DNA of 25,936 bases from a virus, in the IMG/VR virus record IMGVR_UViG_3300025168_013920, positions 1-25,936 of that record; one strand, given 5' to 3'. Position numbers and translations under genes: made by a program. The notes under the pieces were generated by a model, which ran no database searches, had not been told where the DNA came from, and saw nothing but the letters and a program-made list of their open reading frames with translations. Shown in pieces: positions 13,873 to 19,349 of the stretch (positions are counted from its first letter, which is position 1; every line of letters starts with the position of its first letter).

Positions 13873-14157
13873 ATGAGACGCTCACCTGCGATGGGGTCTT
13901 ATGGGCTGCCTGTACCTGGAAGCTCATCCGGCACACGACCAAGGAAGAAGGTTCGGTTTACCAGGACCAAATCTAAAGCTAGAGAAGAAGCAGCAAAGAA
14001 CAAAGCCAAACTCAAAAAGCTTGAAGAGCGCATGAGAAAGCTTAAAGTTATAGGCAAAGACCAGAAGATTTCAAAGAAGCTCAAGCCTGAGCAGTTTGAA
14101 AAAGGTGTAGATAAAAGTAAACATGATCACCGACGCTTTCGGTATGATCGCGAATAA
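13873..14157 (+). CDS. Basic protein A with MRRSPxxGxYGLPV N-terminus
   Basis: 94 residues, ATG one base after the end of the beta-like frame, with GGAG upstream. The first 14 residues (MRRSPAMGSYGLPV) match those of the next gene, after which the two proteins are unrelated. The rest is Lys/Arg-rich; residues ~30-60 (KAREEAAKNKAKLKKLEERM) look like a coiled-coil helix. Net charge is strongly positive. No enzyme motif or membrane segment. The shared tag suggests that both proteins are handled by the same partner, for example for incorporation into the particle or cleavage by a protease; this is inference. Confidence 0.8.
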   Translation: MRRSPAMGSYGLPVPGSSSGTRPRKKVRFTRTKSKAREEAAKNKAKLKKLEERMRKLKVIGKDQKISKKLKPEQFEKGVDKSKHDHRRFRYDRE

Positions 14158-14172
14158 CACGGAGAGAATAGC

Positions 14173-15042
14173 ATGAGACGATCACCAGTTTTAGGAGATT
14201 ACGGGTTGCCTGTTGGGGGCGCTTCTCGTGGGGGCCGGGCTTCTGTCCGCTCAAAGTCTTCAGGGAAAGCTGCGGCTACAAAAGGCAAGATTGCTATTAA
14301 GTATGGTAAGGCCGGCACTCATAGGGGTGTTAAGTTTGATAAGCCCACTAAACATTCCAGCACTAAAGAAGTCTTTAAAGATTCTGACGTGCGCCGACAA
14401 GCTGCTAGCCGAGGGATGGGTCGCTACCTACGAGAAGGATTAAACATTACTGAACGCACCAGGATGCGACAGTTTGCAAAGAAGTTTAATACAGACAAAG
14501 GGATCATGCGCCAAAGCTCTACGATGCAGGAGCGCACAGCTTTCCTAGATAATATGAGGCGCTCAGGTGCTAAGGTATCTAAGAACATGAAGGAGTGGGT
14601 TAAGCTGGGCGCACGAACCAAGCCAACCATAAATGAAAAAGCGGATGTTAATAGAGCACCAGATGCCTGGAGCAAAAGAAGAAGAAGGCAAAACATTATC
14701 AAGGGTCGCCAGGCTCGGGAAAGAGACAACGTTAGAGAAGCTTCTGAGGCTAGAAGCGAACGAGTTGGACGTGTCCGCAAGCAAATGGTTGAAGCTGCTA
14801 AAAAATCTGGTGGTGATGAGCGAGTCCGGACCCGCAGTCCTAAAGTCAAAGGGAAGAAAGCACTTGGCTTTGATAAGCAGATGGATAGCCAAGCAGCTAA
14901 AAGCCCAAGCGGAACCGCTAAGCTTGCAGTACGCAAGCGCTTAGGCAAAGCACAGGCCGGCAAGCAAAAGGCTCAGAAGGCTATGGCGCGAACGTCTTCG
15001 GCTGATAGGACACGCAAGGGCGGCTTTAGTTTCTATGATTAA
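14173..15042 (+). CDS. Basic protein B with MRRSPxxGxYGLPV N-terminus (289 aa)
   Basis: 289 residues, ATG with GGAG (cggagagaatagc) upstream, 15 bases after basic protein A. It begins MRRSPVLGDYGLPVGG, echoing its neighbour, then a Gly/Ser/Arg linker, and stays highly basic to the end (SKRRRRQNIIKGRQARERDN; KAQAGKQKAQKAMA). Residues ~70-150 have mixed hydrophobic content (RGMGRYLREGLNITERTRMR) and may fold into a small helical domain. I recognise no family. A protein with this charge and a late-gene position could condense or accompany packaged DNA. It ends FSFYD and overlaps the next gene by eight bases. Confidence 0.8.
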   Translation: MRRSPVLGDYGLPVGGASRGGRASVRSKSSGKAAATKGKIAIKYGKAGTHRGVKFDKPTKHSSTKEVFKDSDVRRQAASRGMGRYLREGLNITERTRMRQFAKKFNTDKGIMRQSSTMQERTAFLDNMRRSGAKVSKNMKEWVKLGARTKPTINEKADVNRAPDAWSKRRRRQNIIKGRQARERDNVREASEARSERVGRVRKQMVEAAKKSGGDERVRTRSPKVKGKKALGFDKQMDSQAAKSPSGTAKLAVRKRLGKAQAGKQKAQKAMARTSSADRTRKGGFSFYD

Positions 15043-15310
15043 GTATAGGGGTGAAACGTTTCCAGGTTTAAACAAACCGAAGCGAACACCTGGGCACCCT
15101 ACTAAATCTCATGCTGTACTGGTTAAGGTTAACGATAAGATTCGCATGATTCGCTTCGGCGAGAAGGGTGCAAGCACAGCAGGCAAGCCTAAGTCTGGTG
15201 AGTCTGATCGCATGAAGGCTAAGCGTAAGTCCTTCAAGGCTCGTCACCGTAAGAACATTGCCAAGGGCAAGACCTCTGCTGCGTACTGGGCTAACAAAGT
15301 TAAGTGGTAG
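15035..15310 (+). CDS. Small basic protein with conserved RKSFKARH...YWANKVKW end
   Basis: 91 residues. The first part is a likely beta hairpin (HAVLVKVNDKIRMIRFGEKG), the second a basic strip KAKRKSFKARHRKNIAKGK followed by SAAYWANKVKW. This combination (IRFG, RxKSFxARH, then AxYWxxxxW) recurs in small proteins of many aquatic phages and larger DNA viruses that I associate with DUF5872; the identification is from memory of the motif. No function is established that I can name. The start ATG lies inside the end of basic protein B without a clear ribosome site, suggesting coupled translation. It is the last gene of the plus-strand late block. Confidence 0.8.
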   Translation: MIKYRGETFPGLNKPKRTPGHPTKSHAVLVKVNDKIRMIRFGEKGASTAGKPKSGESDRMKAKRKSFKARHRKNIAKGKTSAAYWANKVKW

Positions 15311-15347: not shown

Positions 15348-15530
15348 CTATAGCCTGCCTCCAAGCTTTATGATGGCACGCTCGCAAGCCTCCATTGTTT
15401 TCTGATCTTCTGCGTTCAAGTCAACGCTGTAATTTCTATCGCAAAGATCAAGGTAGATATTGTAAAAAGCCTCAATGCCTAATGTAAGTTGTTCTTCTGT
15501 AAAATAAACTGTCTTTCCTTTAGCCATCAT
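15348..15530 (-). CDS. Small unknown protein at the end of the early block
   Basis: 60 residues. Two ATGs lie in tandem; GGAGG is one base from the first and four from the second, so translation probably starts at 15527 (MAKGKTVYFTEEQL...). The first ATG overlaps the helicase stop (ATGA), giving translational coupling. The sequence begins with a predicted strand (KTVYFTEEQL), then a helical body with LGIEAFYNIYLDL and a charged end. The 'vyFTeEQl..g' opening is common in small phage proteins of unknown function. No catalytic motif seen. Confidence 0.7.
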   Translation of the reverse strand: MMAKGKTVYFTEEQLTLGIEAFYNIYLDLCDRNYSVDLNAEDQKTMEACERAIIKLGGRL

Positions 15531-16462
15531 GCCTCCTCGAATCTGTGATGATGTAACTGTGGGTAGAGGGACAGGCTGTCCATCGTGCCGAATCTATTCT
15601 TATCAATGATAACTTCTACCTTGCCAGCTAGTGCCCCTTCCTTATCGACTGGCTTGTGTAGCAGCAGCACTGAGTCAGCATCCTGCTCGATCTCTCCACT
15701 GTCACGCAGGTCCTTCATGCTCGGAGCCTTAGCTGTAGCAGTGCCACGGTTAAGCTGAGCACAACAAAGCACAGGCACCTCTAATCGTTTGGCCATAGCC
15801 TTAAGTGCTTTGGATACTGAGCCTACCGCTTCACTGCGTGTAGCGTACTCACCAATAGGTTGGACTGACGTGATGAAATCAACAACGACCATAAGCAATG
15901 GATCATCGCTGTTCTTTTTAAGTAGGTCACAAGCTTCTATGATGTTCTCTAATTGCATTCCGTAATAAACATGCAACCTACTAAGGACGTTCTGCTCTAA
16001 CGACACGAGAGACTCAACGTGAGTGATCCCCTGCTCATTCTCTTCCTCGTATGGCGTGATACAATTTTGCTTTGCGATACACGAGATAGCTTTGAGCCCG
16101 ATCTCTGCTGGTCCCATCTCAACGGAACAGTAGAACACCTTGCCGTATTTGTAGCCCTTAAGAATCTGGACTGCGATCTGAGTAGCCAAGGTTGTCTTGC
16201 CCGTACCAGGTCTAGCACCCAGTACAATCAATCGACCTGGCGACATACGCACTGCATCATCGAGCCGCTTGAACCCTGTCTTAATACCAGGAGCGAATGA
16301 CTTGCGTGCATTGTTAAGGATACCCTCGAGTGCGCTCGTACCCGCAGCTTTTAACTGATAAGGCTTACCGTACTCATAGCTACCCTGCTTCTCCTGTGGC
16401 CATGAGGTATAGTTTGACAAGGTTTCCTCGCTTAATCTCTGTAAGTGCAATGGCTGCGGCAT
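15527..16462 (-). CDS. DnaB-type replicative helicase, C-terminal-domain only
   Basis: 311 residues, shorter than full DnaB (~450), because it lacks the N-terminal primase-interacting domain. The RecA-like motor is complete: GFKRLDDAVRM, Walker A GARPGTGKTT (residues 82-91), FYCSVEM, Walker B LLMVVVDF (189-196), AQLNRG (236-240), DLRDSGEIEQDAD (251-263) and IIDKNRFG near the end. It would unwind DNA 5'->3' as a hexamer at the phage fork. The ATG at 16462 overlaps the resolvase gene by 83 bases and has no ribosome site; a TTG at 16420 is preceded by GAGGAA and may be the true start (297 residues). No loader or primase lies nearby. Helicase identity is firm. Confidence 0.92.
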   Translation of the reverse strand: MPQPLHLQRLSEETLSNYTSWPQEKQGSYEYGKPYQLKAAGTSALEGILNNARKSFAPGIKTGFKRLDDAVRMSPGRLIVLGARPGTGKTTLATQIAVQILKGYKYGKVFYCSVEMGPAEIGLKAISCIAKQNCITPYEEENEQGITHVESLVSLEQNVLSRLHVYYGMQLENIIEACDLLKKNSDDPLLMVVVDFITSVQPIGEYATRSEAVGSVSKALKAMAKRLEVPVLCCAQLNRGTATAKAPSMKDLRDSGEIEQDADSVLLLHKPVDKEGALAGKVEVIIDKNRFGTMDSLSLYPQLHHHRFEEA

Positions 16463-16931
16463 CTGCTGCGTGCTCCCTTTGTGTCTTAGGTATCTTCATT
16501 AGATACTTAGATGCACCGGGGATATTGTCGCAGAGCCACTCGGTGATCTCGGTTTTGCTGGCTGACTTCTTGCCCGTCAACTCCTGCTTCACATCCTTTG
16601 GATGCCACTGAGTCAACGGCCAGTTATCAACAGCCAGCCCATAGATAAGACCACGAGCCATACCAATCACACGGTCACTCGAAGTGCGTGTCCAACTCTC
16701 TGCCTCCACAGCAATGAGCTTAATGTTATAAGATGAACAGACGTTACGCAGTTCCTCGCCAATGATCTTGCACCTAGCTTGGTTGTCCTGCCAGACAGGG
16801 ATCTTATGCTTAGATTTCTGCGTGCGAATGACGCCAGCCTCGACGCACTTAGCTAGGCTACCATCGTACTCGATGATAGCCCAGCCAAGGCTGCGAAAGC
16901 CTGGGTCAATACCCAGTACTCGGATGCCCAT
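16380..16931 (-). CDS. RuvC-type Holliday-junction resolvase
   Basis: Start chosen at the ATG at 16931 (MGIRVLGIDPG), which follows the stop of the previous gene within two bases and has GAGGTG upstream; a longer form from 16976 would add 15 unlike residues and overlap that gene. 183 residues, close to RuvC (~170). The RNase H-like acidic residues are visible: D9 in GIDPGFRSLGWA, E76 in AVEAES, and D157 in HAADAAAIAL with H154. WHPKDVKQELTGKKSASK corresponds to the DNA-binding and 'K-x-ltG.G.a.K' region. It would cut four-way junctions made by recombination, resolving replicated or concatemeric DNA before packaging. Firm. Confidence 0.9.
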   Translation of the reverse strand: MGIRVLGIDPGFRSLGWAIIEYDGSLAKCVEAGVIRTQKSKHKIPVWQDNQARCKIIGEELRNVCSSYNIKLIAVEAESWTRTSSDRVIGMARGLIYGLAVDNWPLTQWHPKDVKQELTGKKSASKTEITEWLCDNIPGASKYLMKIPKTQREHAADAAAIALTEIKRGNLVKLYLMATGEAG

Positions 16932-16932
16932 T

Positions 16933-17367
16933 TTAGAATGGCACCTCGTTAGAGGGAGGGTTGAACCCCGTGTCATCGCCAGGCGTTAGGTGCTTAACAC
17001 CCGTATACACCTTCTCATTGTACTCACGATTGTTCGTCGTGATCATAAAGCAACGATTGGCTTGCTCGCCTACGGCGAGAGCCCAATCGCCCCATCCTTC
17101 AAGGTCGCCCTTGATACCCATGCCATTGAAGATAGCGCCTGCTTTCCACAGGATAGTATCAGCGTGCTTGATCTTATCCCAAACACGACGACCGTTATGC
17201 TCACCATGGGTGATGGTAAACTCCAATGAGGTACGCATGATACCATCATCAGGGTGAGGCTCGGTCTCTACATTTGTAAGCCGAGCAGTGTAAGTACCTT
17301 CAGGCAACGGAGCGAACTCCTTGTCACCTTGTGTGCTTGCTTCATTCATCCGATTCATAAAACTCAT
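16933..17367 (-). CDS. DUF669-type protein (probable ssDNA-binding partner)
   Basis: 144 residues, ATG with GGAG five bases upstream and eight bases after the ATPase gene. The N-terminal half matches the DUF669 style: FAPLPEGTYTARLTNVE near residues 17-33, then RTSLEFTITHGEHNGRRVWDKI (as two strands and a turn), then helical LWKAGAIFNGMGI. The tail is acidic and Pro-rich, ending NEVPF, the kind of C-terminal tip that single-stranded-DNA-binding proteins use to recruit partners. DUF669 genes sit regularly next to phage RecA-fold ATPases and are thought to bind single-stranded DNA; no experiment known to me fixes the role in this subgroup. The family call is fairly sure, the activity is inferred. 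Confidence 0.8.
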   Translation of the reverse strand: MSFMNRMNEASTQGDKEFAPLPEGTYTARLTNVETEPHPDDGIMRTSLEFTITHGEHNGRRVWDKIKHADTILWKAGAIFNGMGIKGDLEGWGDWALAVGEQANRCFMITTNNREYNEKVYTGVKHLTPGDDTGFNPPSNEVPF

Positions 17368-17375
17368 AATAGCTC

Positions 17376-18122
17376 CTACCGCTGGTTGAGTTTGTTTAGA
17401 AATGCGAGAACATCTTCCTCGCTAACGACTGGTACAACCTGTGACTCGCCATCTTTAAAGATACGATAGCGACACTTACTAACGAACTGAGGATCACGGC
17501 TCAGGTTAAGCACCTGTGATCCTGGTTTGAGATTCAACGCAGCAGCCTGCGTCTTGCTTAACACTTGCAACCTGCCAACCAGATCAAACGTACCAACGAT
17601 GTCCACTCGATCATTCTTAGGACACTCGGGTGCATAGTAACCCGGCAGCCCCTCGACTTCACCGACCGCCTCATGGCTGAGCATTAGAATATTCTTACCT
17701 ACCTTTGAGAGATTCTTTAGCTCATGCATGATCATCTTCAGTTGCTTCTTACGCTCACCGTACATCTTCAATGTGGTTTGGTTAGAGCCAGAGATACCCT
17801 GAAGTAATGACCATGCCATCTCACTTAACGTGTCGACGACAACCCACTTCACTTCTTTCTTATTGCGTAGCTGCTTAAGGAACTCGAGAAGCTCACCGCC
17901 CATGTTCCCATTGGGTTCGGATAGATCAAACAACTTGGTGTCCTTACCCACCTCACGCAATGCCTCTTGCATACCAACCTCAAAGTCTAGCGCCACACCG
18001 ACGCCATCATCAAGGCCTGCGATACGAGCAGCAAGCGTGCTCTTACCAACACCGGGTGGACCATACACCATGGTCATCATTCCTCGTTGGTCGTTCGCAT
18101 AGTCAATCATCTTAAGACCCAT
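17376..18122 (-). CDS. RecA-fold ATPase, Sak4-like recombinase
   Basis: 248 residues, a single RecA-core domain. Walker A is YGPPGVGKST (residues 20-29), followed by VALDFEVG; Walker B is KWVVVDTLSEM (D97); ILMLSHE near residue 147 is the sensor strand. There is no N-terminal oligomerisation domain, as in the phage Sak4 / AAA_24-type group (PF13479), which anneal or pair DNA strands with ssDNA-binding proteins. The ribosome site AAGGAG lies inside the last codons of the nuclease gene, and the start overlaps that gene by 11 bases. With DUF669, nuclease and resolvase it completes a recombination cassette. ATPase fold is certain; strand annealing is inferred from the family. Confidence 0.87.
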   Translation of the reverse strand: MGLKMIDYANDQRGMMTMVYGPPGVGKSTLAARIAGLDDGVGVALDFEVGMQEALREVGKDTKLFDLSEPNGNMGGELLEFLKQLRNKKEVKWVVVDTLSEMAWSLLQGISGSNQTTLKMYGERKKQLKMIMHELKNLSKVGKNILMLSHEAVGEVEGLPGYYAPECPKNDRVDIVGTFDLVGRLQVLSKTQAAALNLKPGSQVLNLSRDPQFVSKCRYRIFKDGESQVVPVVSEEDVLAFLNKLNQR

Positions 18123-19191
18123 GTTTAATCTCCTTCACGGGTAAGCCTGCCTTATAAGCGTGTGCATATAAGAACATGGCTGGGTGGTTTAAATAGTTAT
18201 CGGATACGGTATCGAGTTGCTGGCTACTGCTGGTCTTGTAATCAAGTACAACTGTATTCCCATCGTAGTCAGTGCCGATCAGATCAGGCTGGCATGTTAC
18301 CCACATGTAGGTACCAGGCACACGAAAGATCCTGCGCTGTTCGTACTCGTTGATACATAGAAGCTCCCTCGTTGCCAAGCAAAACATTCTCACTGCTGTA
18401 GACGCACATTCACTCGCCTTGAAGTCCTCATCTAATGCTTCAATGTGTTGTTTAAGCTCAGTTATTTTAGCATCAATACGGAGCCTAGCAATTAAGATTA
18501 GGTCGGACACACTCTGCGTTGGAACAAAACTACCTACATCCTTACAGCCTGAGAATGCATAGGCCAGAGCATCGCACCCCTCGTGCACTAACGTGCCGAG
18601 GGTGCGGGCTGAGATCTTACTCCACTCTTGCCTCGCAGGTTCCTTGTTCATCTTGTAACTGAAGTACCACTGACGAGGGCACATCATGTAGCTACGCAGT
18701 TGCGATGGTGACACGATGAACGCACGATCATGACGCAATGGCTGACGACCAGGAACAGAGTATGACTTACCCGCTCCGCTGTAGTCACCGCTGCGGTCAC
18801 GAACACCGAACCAATTCTCGATGTCACCCGTCGGATCAGTACGACACAGTGTCTTCCAATCGCACAGCCTGCACGCAGCCACGCTACGAGGTGACGCATA
18901 AGTCTCAGCCTTCATGCGCAAGCCAATGGCTCGTGTCTCATCCAGCGCATACTGGATAGAGTCACCAGTCATTACCCAGTCAACCTCCGAAGACCAAGCA
19001 CGCCTGTCTCTGCTATTCAGGTGCTGCATAAAGTCTTGGTCAATCTCTGCCTCATGCTCATGACACGCAGCCAAGTACATAGCTGAGCTAGTATCCTGGT
19101 TCTTAGCAGTGCTAAGCGTACCGTTCTTTAGGACTCTGATTGGTTTCGGCTTAGCGACTCGTCCGAAAACGTACCGTCCGACAATCGACAT
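18112..19191 (-). CDS. Cas4/RecB-like PD-(D/E)XK nuclease with permuted motif order
   Basis: 359 residues. The second half (160-359) holds the start and catalytic core of a PDDEXK_1/Cas4-like nuclease: VSPSQLRSYMMCPRQWYF (C171), GTLVHEG (H203, E204), CQPDLIG (D303), VVLDYKTS (D317, K319), then AMFLYAHAYKAGLPV. The first half looks like the missing C-terminal half: GRYVFGRVAKPKPIRV (the usual 'v.y..i.KP.iR' strand), a helical stretch, then CRLCDWKTLC (C107, C110, C116), the iron-sulfur cysteines that normally follow the catalytic core. The four expected cysteines are therefore all present but reordered. The start is fixed by GGAGG four bases upstream. It probably trims DNA ends for the adjacent recombinase. 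Nuclease call firm, permutation an inference from motif order. Confidence 0.85.
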   Translation of the reverse strand: MSIVGRYVFGRVAKPKPIRVLKNGTLSTAKNQDTSSAMYLAACHEHEAEIDQDFMQHLNSRDRRAWSSEVDWVMTGDSIQYALDETRAIGLRMKAETYASPRSVAACRLCDWKTLCRTDPTGDIENWFGVRDRSGDYSGAGKSYSVPGRQPLRHDRAFIVSPSQLRSYMMCPRQWYFSYKMNKEPARQEWSKISARTLGTLVHEGCDALAYAFSGCKDVGSFVPTQSVSDLILIARLRIDAKITELKQHIEALDEDFKASECASTAVRMFCLATRELLCINEYEQRRIFRVPGTYMWVTCQPDLIGTDYDGNTVVLDYKTSSSQQLDTVSDNYLNHPAMFLYAHAYKAGLPVKEIKHGS

Positions 19192-19349
19192 TCAACCTCC
19201 GTAAGTATGTGCTTTAAAACTAAAACATCATGTTGATAATTTTCAGGGATTGATTTTTCTAAACGCTTGATCATGCTTAACAAGATGACAATGTGTCTGA
19301 TGCTTAGACCTACAAATACCCACTCAGTTAATGGTGTGTTCTTACTCAT
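19128..19349 (-). CDS. Small unknown helical protein (73 aa)
   Basis: Starts at an ATG overlapping the previous stop (ATGA) and runs 64 bases into the nuclease gene in another frame, an unusually long overlap. Residues 9-28 (EWVFVGLSIRHIVILLSMIK) are hydrophobic enough for a weak membrane or amphipathic helix; the rest is charged and helical with an acidic-serine tail. No family recognised. The coupled start supports it; the long overlap with a well-marked gene makes its last third less certain. Confidence 0.6.
   Translation of the reverse strand: MSKNTPLTEWVFVGLSIRHIVILLSMIKRLEKSIPENYQHDVLVLKHILTEVECRLSDGTFSDESLSRNQSES
19196..19200 (-). promoter_or_regulatory. Ribosome binding site fixing the nuclease start
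   Basis: On the minus strand GGAGG, then TTGA, then ATG. This is one of the strongest ribosome sites of the early block and supports translation from 19191, although it lies inside the upstream 73-residue gene. It matters because it shows that the unusual N-terminus of the nuclease is a real gene start and not a fragment of a longer frame. Confidence 0.8.

Follow-up and report, generated by a model that had tools for sequence, protein, structure and literature searches.

Does the open reading frame at positions 18112-19191 of this virus record encode a Cas4/RecB-like nuclease whose two halves have changed places? Bacteria, archaea and eukaryotes, as well as the viruses of all three, have nucleases of the Cas4/AddB/RecB type, in which a cluster that ties the two chain ends together is regarded as structurally essential. 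This structural iron-sulfur cluster is bound in Cas4 and AddB by one N-terminal cysteine and three C-terminal ones (PMC3466216). The window analysed here is the whole record of 25,936 bases, and the original prediction had read the frame as a natural circular permutant of this family. We consider it very likely, with a probability of about 0.88, that the gene encodes a circularly permuted Cas4-like PF12705 (PDDEXK_1) nuclease that carries its back half first. The permutation itself, that is, collinearity with the canonical family only after rotation, is shown below.

A nuclease reading frame with its motifs in swapped order

The open reading frame occupies positions 18112-19191 of the minus strand, on which all features described here lie unless stated otherwise, and encodes 359 amino acids from an ATG, followed by a stop codon. 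The original prediction gave the same coordinates without naming the strand, and every motif that it quoted is present: GRYVFGRVAKPKPIRV at residues 5-20, CRLCDWKTLC at 107-116, CPRQWYF at 171-177, GTLVHEG at 199-205, CQPDLIG at 300-306, VVLDYKTS at 314-321, and the YAHAYKAGLPV helix. Its account of the translation signals also held. A GGAGG Shine-Dalgarno sequence (19196-19200) stands four bases before the ATG, and the last nuclease codons contain both AAGGAG (18130-18135), the ribosome site of the next gene, and the ATG of that gene (18122-18120), with the nuclease stop falling after that ATG.

The chain opens with a predicted beta strand (residues 3-11; 19159-19185), which forms the new N-terminus and is equivalent to the canonical strand GVIWDYIRTK that comes after the QxxxY helix. 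Residues 1-122 (18826-19191) correspond to the canonical C-terminal part and include C107-x2-C110-x5-C116 (18844-18873), three cysteines whose canonical counterparts are C-terminal. A link of residues 117-158 (18718-18843), leading from the old C-terminus to the old N-terminus, contains DPTGDIxNW... and is partly aligned to the canonical tail. The canonical N-terminal and catalytic part follows (residues 154-355; 18127-18732), with CPRQW and its C171 (18667-18681), a cysteine whose canonical counterpart is N-terminal, GTLVHE with the catalytic-type H203 (18580-18597), the PD motif with D303 (18283-18288), and D317-Y-K319, the (D/E)xK motif (18235-18243). The last helix (residues 337-348; 18148-18183) is the equivalent of the canonical QxxxY helix, and the chain ends soon after it. 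The cysteine order is thus swapped relative to the family norm of one cysteine, core, and three cysteines.

Profile matches become collinear after rotation

In native order, PF12705 matches only residues 160-350, to model positions 2-175 of 247 (61.5 bits), the match stopping there because the chain ends. When the protein was rotated (residues 151-359 followed by 1-150), a single match covered positions 2-247 of 247 with 65.3 bits; both orders score above the curated Pfam cut-off of 22 bits. PHROG_1218 behaved in the same way, its match extending from positions 7-166 of 364 (32.8 bits) in native order to 7-332 (38.1 bits) after rotation. The N-half alone remained below significance in the Pfam and PHROG libraries, and a dedicated canonical profile was built for this reason.

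A tblastn search of 50,697 phage records with the native protein gave no match. The rotated protein gave only weak matches, yet these led to a canonical enzyme in MW202455.1, which lies directly before an AAA/Sak4-type gene and reads ...GVIWDYIRTKPPTKPEVLKNGSISKAKSIDSTYGVYM...CKQCSYYSLC, compared with MSIVGRYVFGRVAKPKPIRVLKNGTLSTAKNQDTSSAMYL...CRLCDWKTLC at the N-terminus of the permuted protein. The canonical enzymes were recruited by way of MW202455, which the rotated query had first met at E=9; the Pfam and PHROG results are free of this selection. Eleven phage enzymes were used to build the canonical HMM of 334 positions. Residues 1-122 matched positions 193-303 of this model with 27.9 bits, whereas the best of 2000 shuffled N-halves reached 6.6 bits. 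The C-half matched positions 6-53 only weakly (8 bits); its match to Pfam is strong. The original prediction would have been refuted had the N-terminal half matched no canonical C-terminal segment; it does match one, and the permutation reading held. An unrelated zinc-finger-like N-terminal domain was also considered for this half and rejected.

In distant members of the family, introduced below, both halves map in inverted order on the canonical HMM and rotation fuses them. The L019 protein gave 14.7 and 12.9 bits for its separate halves and 35.2 bits as one collinear match after rotation, and L057 gave 19.5 and 20.9 bits versus 49.3; single collinear matches were likewise obtained for rotated L003, L004, L013 and L018. 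For L059, Pfam itself places PF12705 positions 208-247 upstream of positions 2-189. Profile-profile alignment by hhalign assigned the N part of the permuted family to canonical columns 205-324 (E=1.8e-11) and the C part to columns 25-194 (E=9.5e-13), and the whole family, once rotated, aligned to columns 24-320 over 291 columns with E=1.6e-21. The breakpoint separates the QxxxY-type helix from the strand after it, without any detectable loss from the canonical enzyme, which corrects the earlier estimate that little had been lost. A search of PDB sequences with native and rotated orders returned no match.

The permuted order is a trait of one phage lineage

Scans of IMG/VR that used the nuclease, Sak4 and RuvC as queries identified ten further full-length homologues, 29-95% identical and from other metagenomes, that share the same domain order and start position. 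All contigs carrying them are metagenomic fragments. Identities to the nuclease are 95% (L002), 88% (L003), 87% (L004) and 84% (L005, partial) for the close relatives, and 34% (L018), 33% (L019), 29% (L013), 34% (L059), 31% (L057), 29% (L055) and 30% (L051) for the others; L012 and L054 are C-terminal fragments at contig edges. Each homologue starts at the same strand, in L059 by means of a TTG after AGGAGG, a clear Shine-Dalgarno sequence of its own. The L051 protein (L051:1164-2369) carries about 37 inserted residues within its N-part. All contigs with the same Sak4 clade and a complete upstream gene carry the permuted nuclease. Searches of bacterial and archaeal genome contigs with the nuclease and with Sak4 found no member of the family. 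The possibility that a record also holds a canonical copy was considered and rejected: whole-record searches of 11 records, which are incomplete, found one PF12705 gene in each and no second.

In a tree built after rotation, the permuted proteins form one side of a single branch (support 98/98, or 100/99 with the longest rows removed), which establishes a single origin of the permutation in the sampled set. Some long branches remain in this tree, and the place of the clade among canonical enzymes is therefore unsettled. We take the canonical order as ancestral because it is common to Cas4 and AddB (PMC3466216). Among four close relatives, dN/dS was 0.05-0.15 in the N-half and 0.13-0.20 in the C-half, and both halves are under purifying selection.

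The cysteines C107, C110, C116 and C171 are kept in 11 of 11 full-length permuted proteins, all of which retain Cys-x(2-4)-Cys-x5-Cys, CxRxW, His, Asp and (D/E)xK. The catalytic set here is H203, D303 and D317/K319, and its His, Asp and (D/E)xK are common to all sampled members. Variation is found around these residues: (D/E)xK is ExK in L051, L055, L057 and L059, PD is AD in L051 and L055, and HE is HL or HK in L013, L018 and L019. The original prediction had listed a (Q)xxxY element, which requires correction, for here Y342 is kept and the Gln is absent (PAMFLY). The Gln is replaced in all sampled permuted members except L013 (PQPYFY). QxxxY is less strict than the catalytic acids; its loss is nevertheless a caveat, and catalysis may be altered. 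The claim that the cluster cysteines and catalytic acids are kept, and hence that the enzyme is active, held for the residues, whereas activity is inferred only.

A confident single-chain fold is predicted

AlphaFold modelling with a 14-sequence family alignment produced a compact single-chain fold (pLDDT 83.3, pTM 0.80); short helices lie around C107-C116 and C171, and confidence is lowest at residues 135-140 and 188-192. This model supersedes an earlier one from 9 sequences, which was poor in the cysteine region and gave a Foldseek E of only 0.06. With regard to the structural check proposed with the original prediction, a compact monomer is predicted with confidence, and clustering of the cysteines and proximity of the termini are inferred only.

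Foldseek compares chains in sequence order only. Its best fold match in the PDB was AdnA (E=4.5e-4), and canonical Cas4-type structures (ACE1) gave TM values of only 0.22-0.37, as expected if a sequential comparison can match only one half at a time. Among BFVD models, phage PD-(D/E)XK nucleases gave partial matches only, and the viral protein A0A516LBA7 (365 aa) matched from end to end (E=5e-32, TM 0.82/0.80). This protein has the same order as the permuted nuclease and 27% identity over the full length, and is very likely another member of the permuted family; in the literature searched we found no description of it as permuted.

Neighbouring genes and proposed role

Downstream, a Sak4-like RecA-core ATPase (AAA_24; PHROG 124 'Sak4-like ssDNA annealing protein'; 17376-18122) overlaps the nuclease gene by 11 bases, and translational coupling of the two is likely, as inferred from this overlap. 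It is followed by a DUF669/phage single-strand DNA-binding-type protein (16933-17367, a weak match), a RuvC-like Holliday junction resolvase (16380-16976) and the C-terminal domain only of a DnaB-like replicative helicase (15527-16462), giving the order nuclease, Sak4-like ATPase, DUF669/SSB-like, RuvC and DnaB. In the loci examined, Sak4 comes directly after the permuted nuclease, and the same holds for most of the canonical phages that were inspected.

Several other features of these regions were recorded. The DnaB-like helicase (15527-16462, minus strand) lacks the N-terminal region that its relatives in L012 and L013 have. Two neighbouring plus-strand frames, 13873-14157 and 14173-15042, share the opening MRRSP-x-x-G-x-YGLPV, which suggests paralogues or a duplicated leader. 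A further plus-strand frame, 15035-15310, encodes a full-length PHROG 7595 protein of unknown function, at most 79% identical to Roseobacter phage proteins and widespread in marine phages. On another contig, a TnpB/OrfB-like transposon-type frame (L023:1687-2847), identified by eye only, lies upstream of a canonical-order nuclease.

Cas4-type enzymes degrade ssDNA as 5'-3' exonucleases and are believed to generate 3' tails for recombination (PMC3466216, PMC5704561). Sak4 anneals single strands in an ATP-dependent manner, and its cognate SSB stimulates it (PMC5928155). Because of these activities, the gene order fits an end-resection and annealing module (PMC3466216, PMC5704561, PMC5928155). 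We propose that one chain would rebuild the full single-domain Cas4-like iron-sulfur PD-(D/E)XK fold. The chain ends of Cas4 and AddB must lie near each other, and could be joined by a link, because the cysteines of both ends share the cluster. In the permuted protein, the link of about 40 residues (117-158) would connect the old termini, which the canonical family brings together at its four-cysteine cluster; the new ends would have been opened in the loop that leads from the helix with the last catalytic-motif tyrosine to the core strand after it. The cluster is inferred to be bound through C107, C110, C116 and C171, and DNA would be cut with H203, D303, D317 and K319. Judging by analogy with the canonical phage enzymes that accompany Sak4, the nuclease would most likely trim DNA ends to expose single strands, which would be used by the Sak4-like annealase and the SSB-like protein, with RuvC resolving the junctions. 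A metal-dependent end-resecting exonuclease feeding Sak4/SSB/RuvC recombination is thus the most likely role, inferred without biochemistry; Fe-S binding, nuclease activity, polarity and the part played in recombination are all inferences, unsupported by experiment.

Evolutionary route and alternative explanations

The original prediction had suggested tandem duplication followed by loss of the outer halves. This route is plausible but unproven; we favour head-to-tail duplication, given that part of the link still resembles the C-terminal tail of canonical enzymes. No intermediate or relic of it was found among the sequences sampled. A gene split into two parts and re-fused in the other order is an improbable route. 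It draws some support from BFVD A0A516L0S8, a 152-aa viral protein that matches about 135 model columns with TM 0.69 of its own length and is perhaps a free half, although it could equally be a truncated reading frame. Against it, the tail-like piece of the link, which aligns as far as canonical column 320-324, fits a fusion of two complete copies.

The rearrangement might instead be an artefact or a pseudogene, in which mis-assembly or a decaying duplication had brought together two fragments of an ordinary nuclease. The source is metagenomic and such artefacts do occur. This explanation is all but excluded, however, by relatives from many metagenomes that share the same order and start at 29-95% identity, by dN/dS of 0.05-0.20 in both halves, by the retention of all motifs, and by the full-length BFVD match. 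The original prediction would have fallen had close relatives shown the usual order; relatives near and distant are all permuted. Two further readings accept the permutation and dispute its consequence. The chain could be active only as a dimer or swapped oligomer in which the N-part completes the catalytic part of another subunit. Sequence cannot separate completion within a chain from completion between chains, and the archaeal Cas4 SSO0001 is a decamer (PMC5704561), but the single-chain fold is confidently predicted (only the monomer was modelled) and the link, at about 40 residues, has sufficient length, which leaves this reading with very little likelihood. The protein could also be folded and yet no efficient nuclease, serving as a DNA-end-binding partner of Sak4, as the loss of the QxxxY Gln in most members and the change of HE to HL or HK in L013, L018 and L019 might suggest. 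We regard this as very improbable too, since invariant His, Asp and (D/E)xK at about 30% identity are hard to explain without catalysis.

A bolder version of the single-chain nuclease reading holds that the permutation is functional and not neutral. The four-cysteine staple would become a contiguous internal module, and the core strand and catalytic helix, freed as chain ends, would alter substrate handling or offer a docking surface for Sak4, a change fixed once and kept by the whole phage lineage. We consider this proposal unlikely.

Relation to known nucleases and implications

The closest counterpart of the permuted nuclease is the canonical phage 'Cas4 family exonuclease' (PHROG 69/1218; PF12705) encoded beside Sak4, as in MW202455.1 (UOF76991.1), Serratia phage Serbin, Pseudomonas phage PMBT14 and Mycobacterium phage FF47. 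The two have in common the catalytic motifs, the four cysteines, an LKNGxLSxAKxxDT...Y segment, a whole-length profile match after rotation, and a position before a Sak4-like ATPase gene. They differ in that the permuted nuclease has its halves swapped, a new N-terminal strand, a link at the old ends, and a QxxxY motif whose Gln is mostly lost; in many canonical phages, unlike here, the upstream neighbour is a DNA polymerase. Cas4 (TIGR00372) and AddB/AdnA place one cysteine before the core and three after it (PMC3466216), whereas here the three come first, and the permuted nuclease is not fused to a helicase, unlike the AddB/AdnA nuclease domains. The TIGR00372 model gave 21.6 bits, below its equivalog cut-off of 65. 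Other natural circular permutants, the jumbo-phage DNA methyltransferases and the cpRAS GTPases (PMC7824862, PMC2430557), show the same kind of rearrangement in unrelated folds. The open-access literature searched, which did not cover the main superfamily review, yielded no earlier description of a Cas4/RecB or PD-(D/E)XK nuclease in permuted form. What appears to be new is a PF12705/Cas4-like nuclease whose permuted order characterises the whole family in a lineage of uncultured phages, although the absence of an earlier report is unproven.

Profile annotation hides such a rearrangement, for Pfam gives the permuted nuclease an ordinary partial PDDEXK_1 match. The existence of a natural lineage with an internal staple means that a common nuclease fold tolerates the exchange of its ends while apparently still working, and this lineage provides a natural test case for the function of the iron staple.
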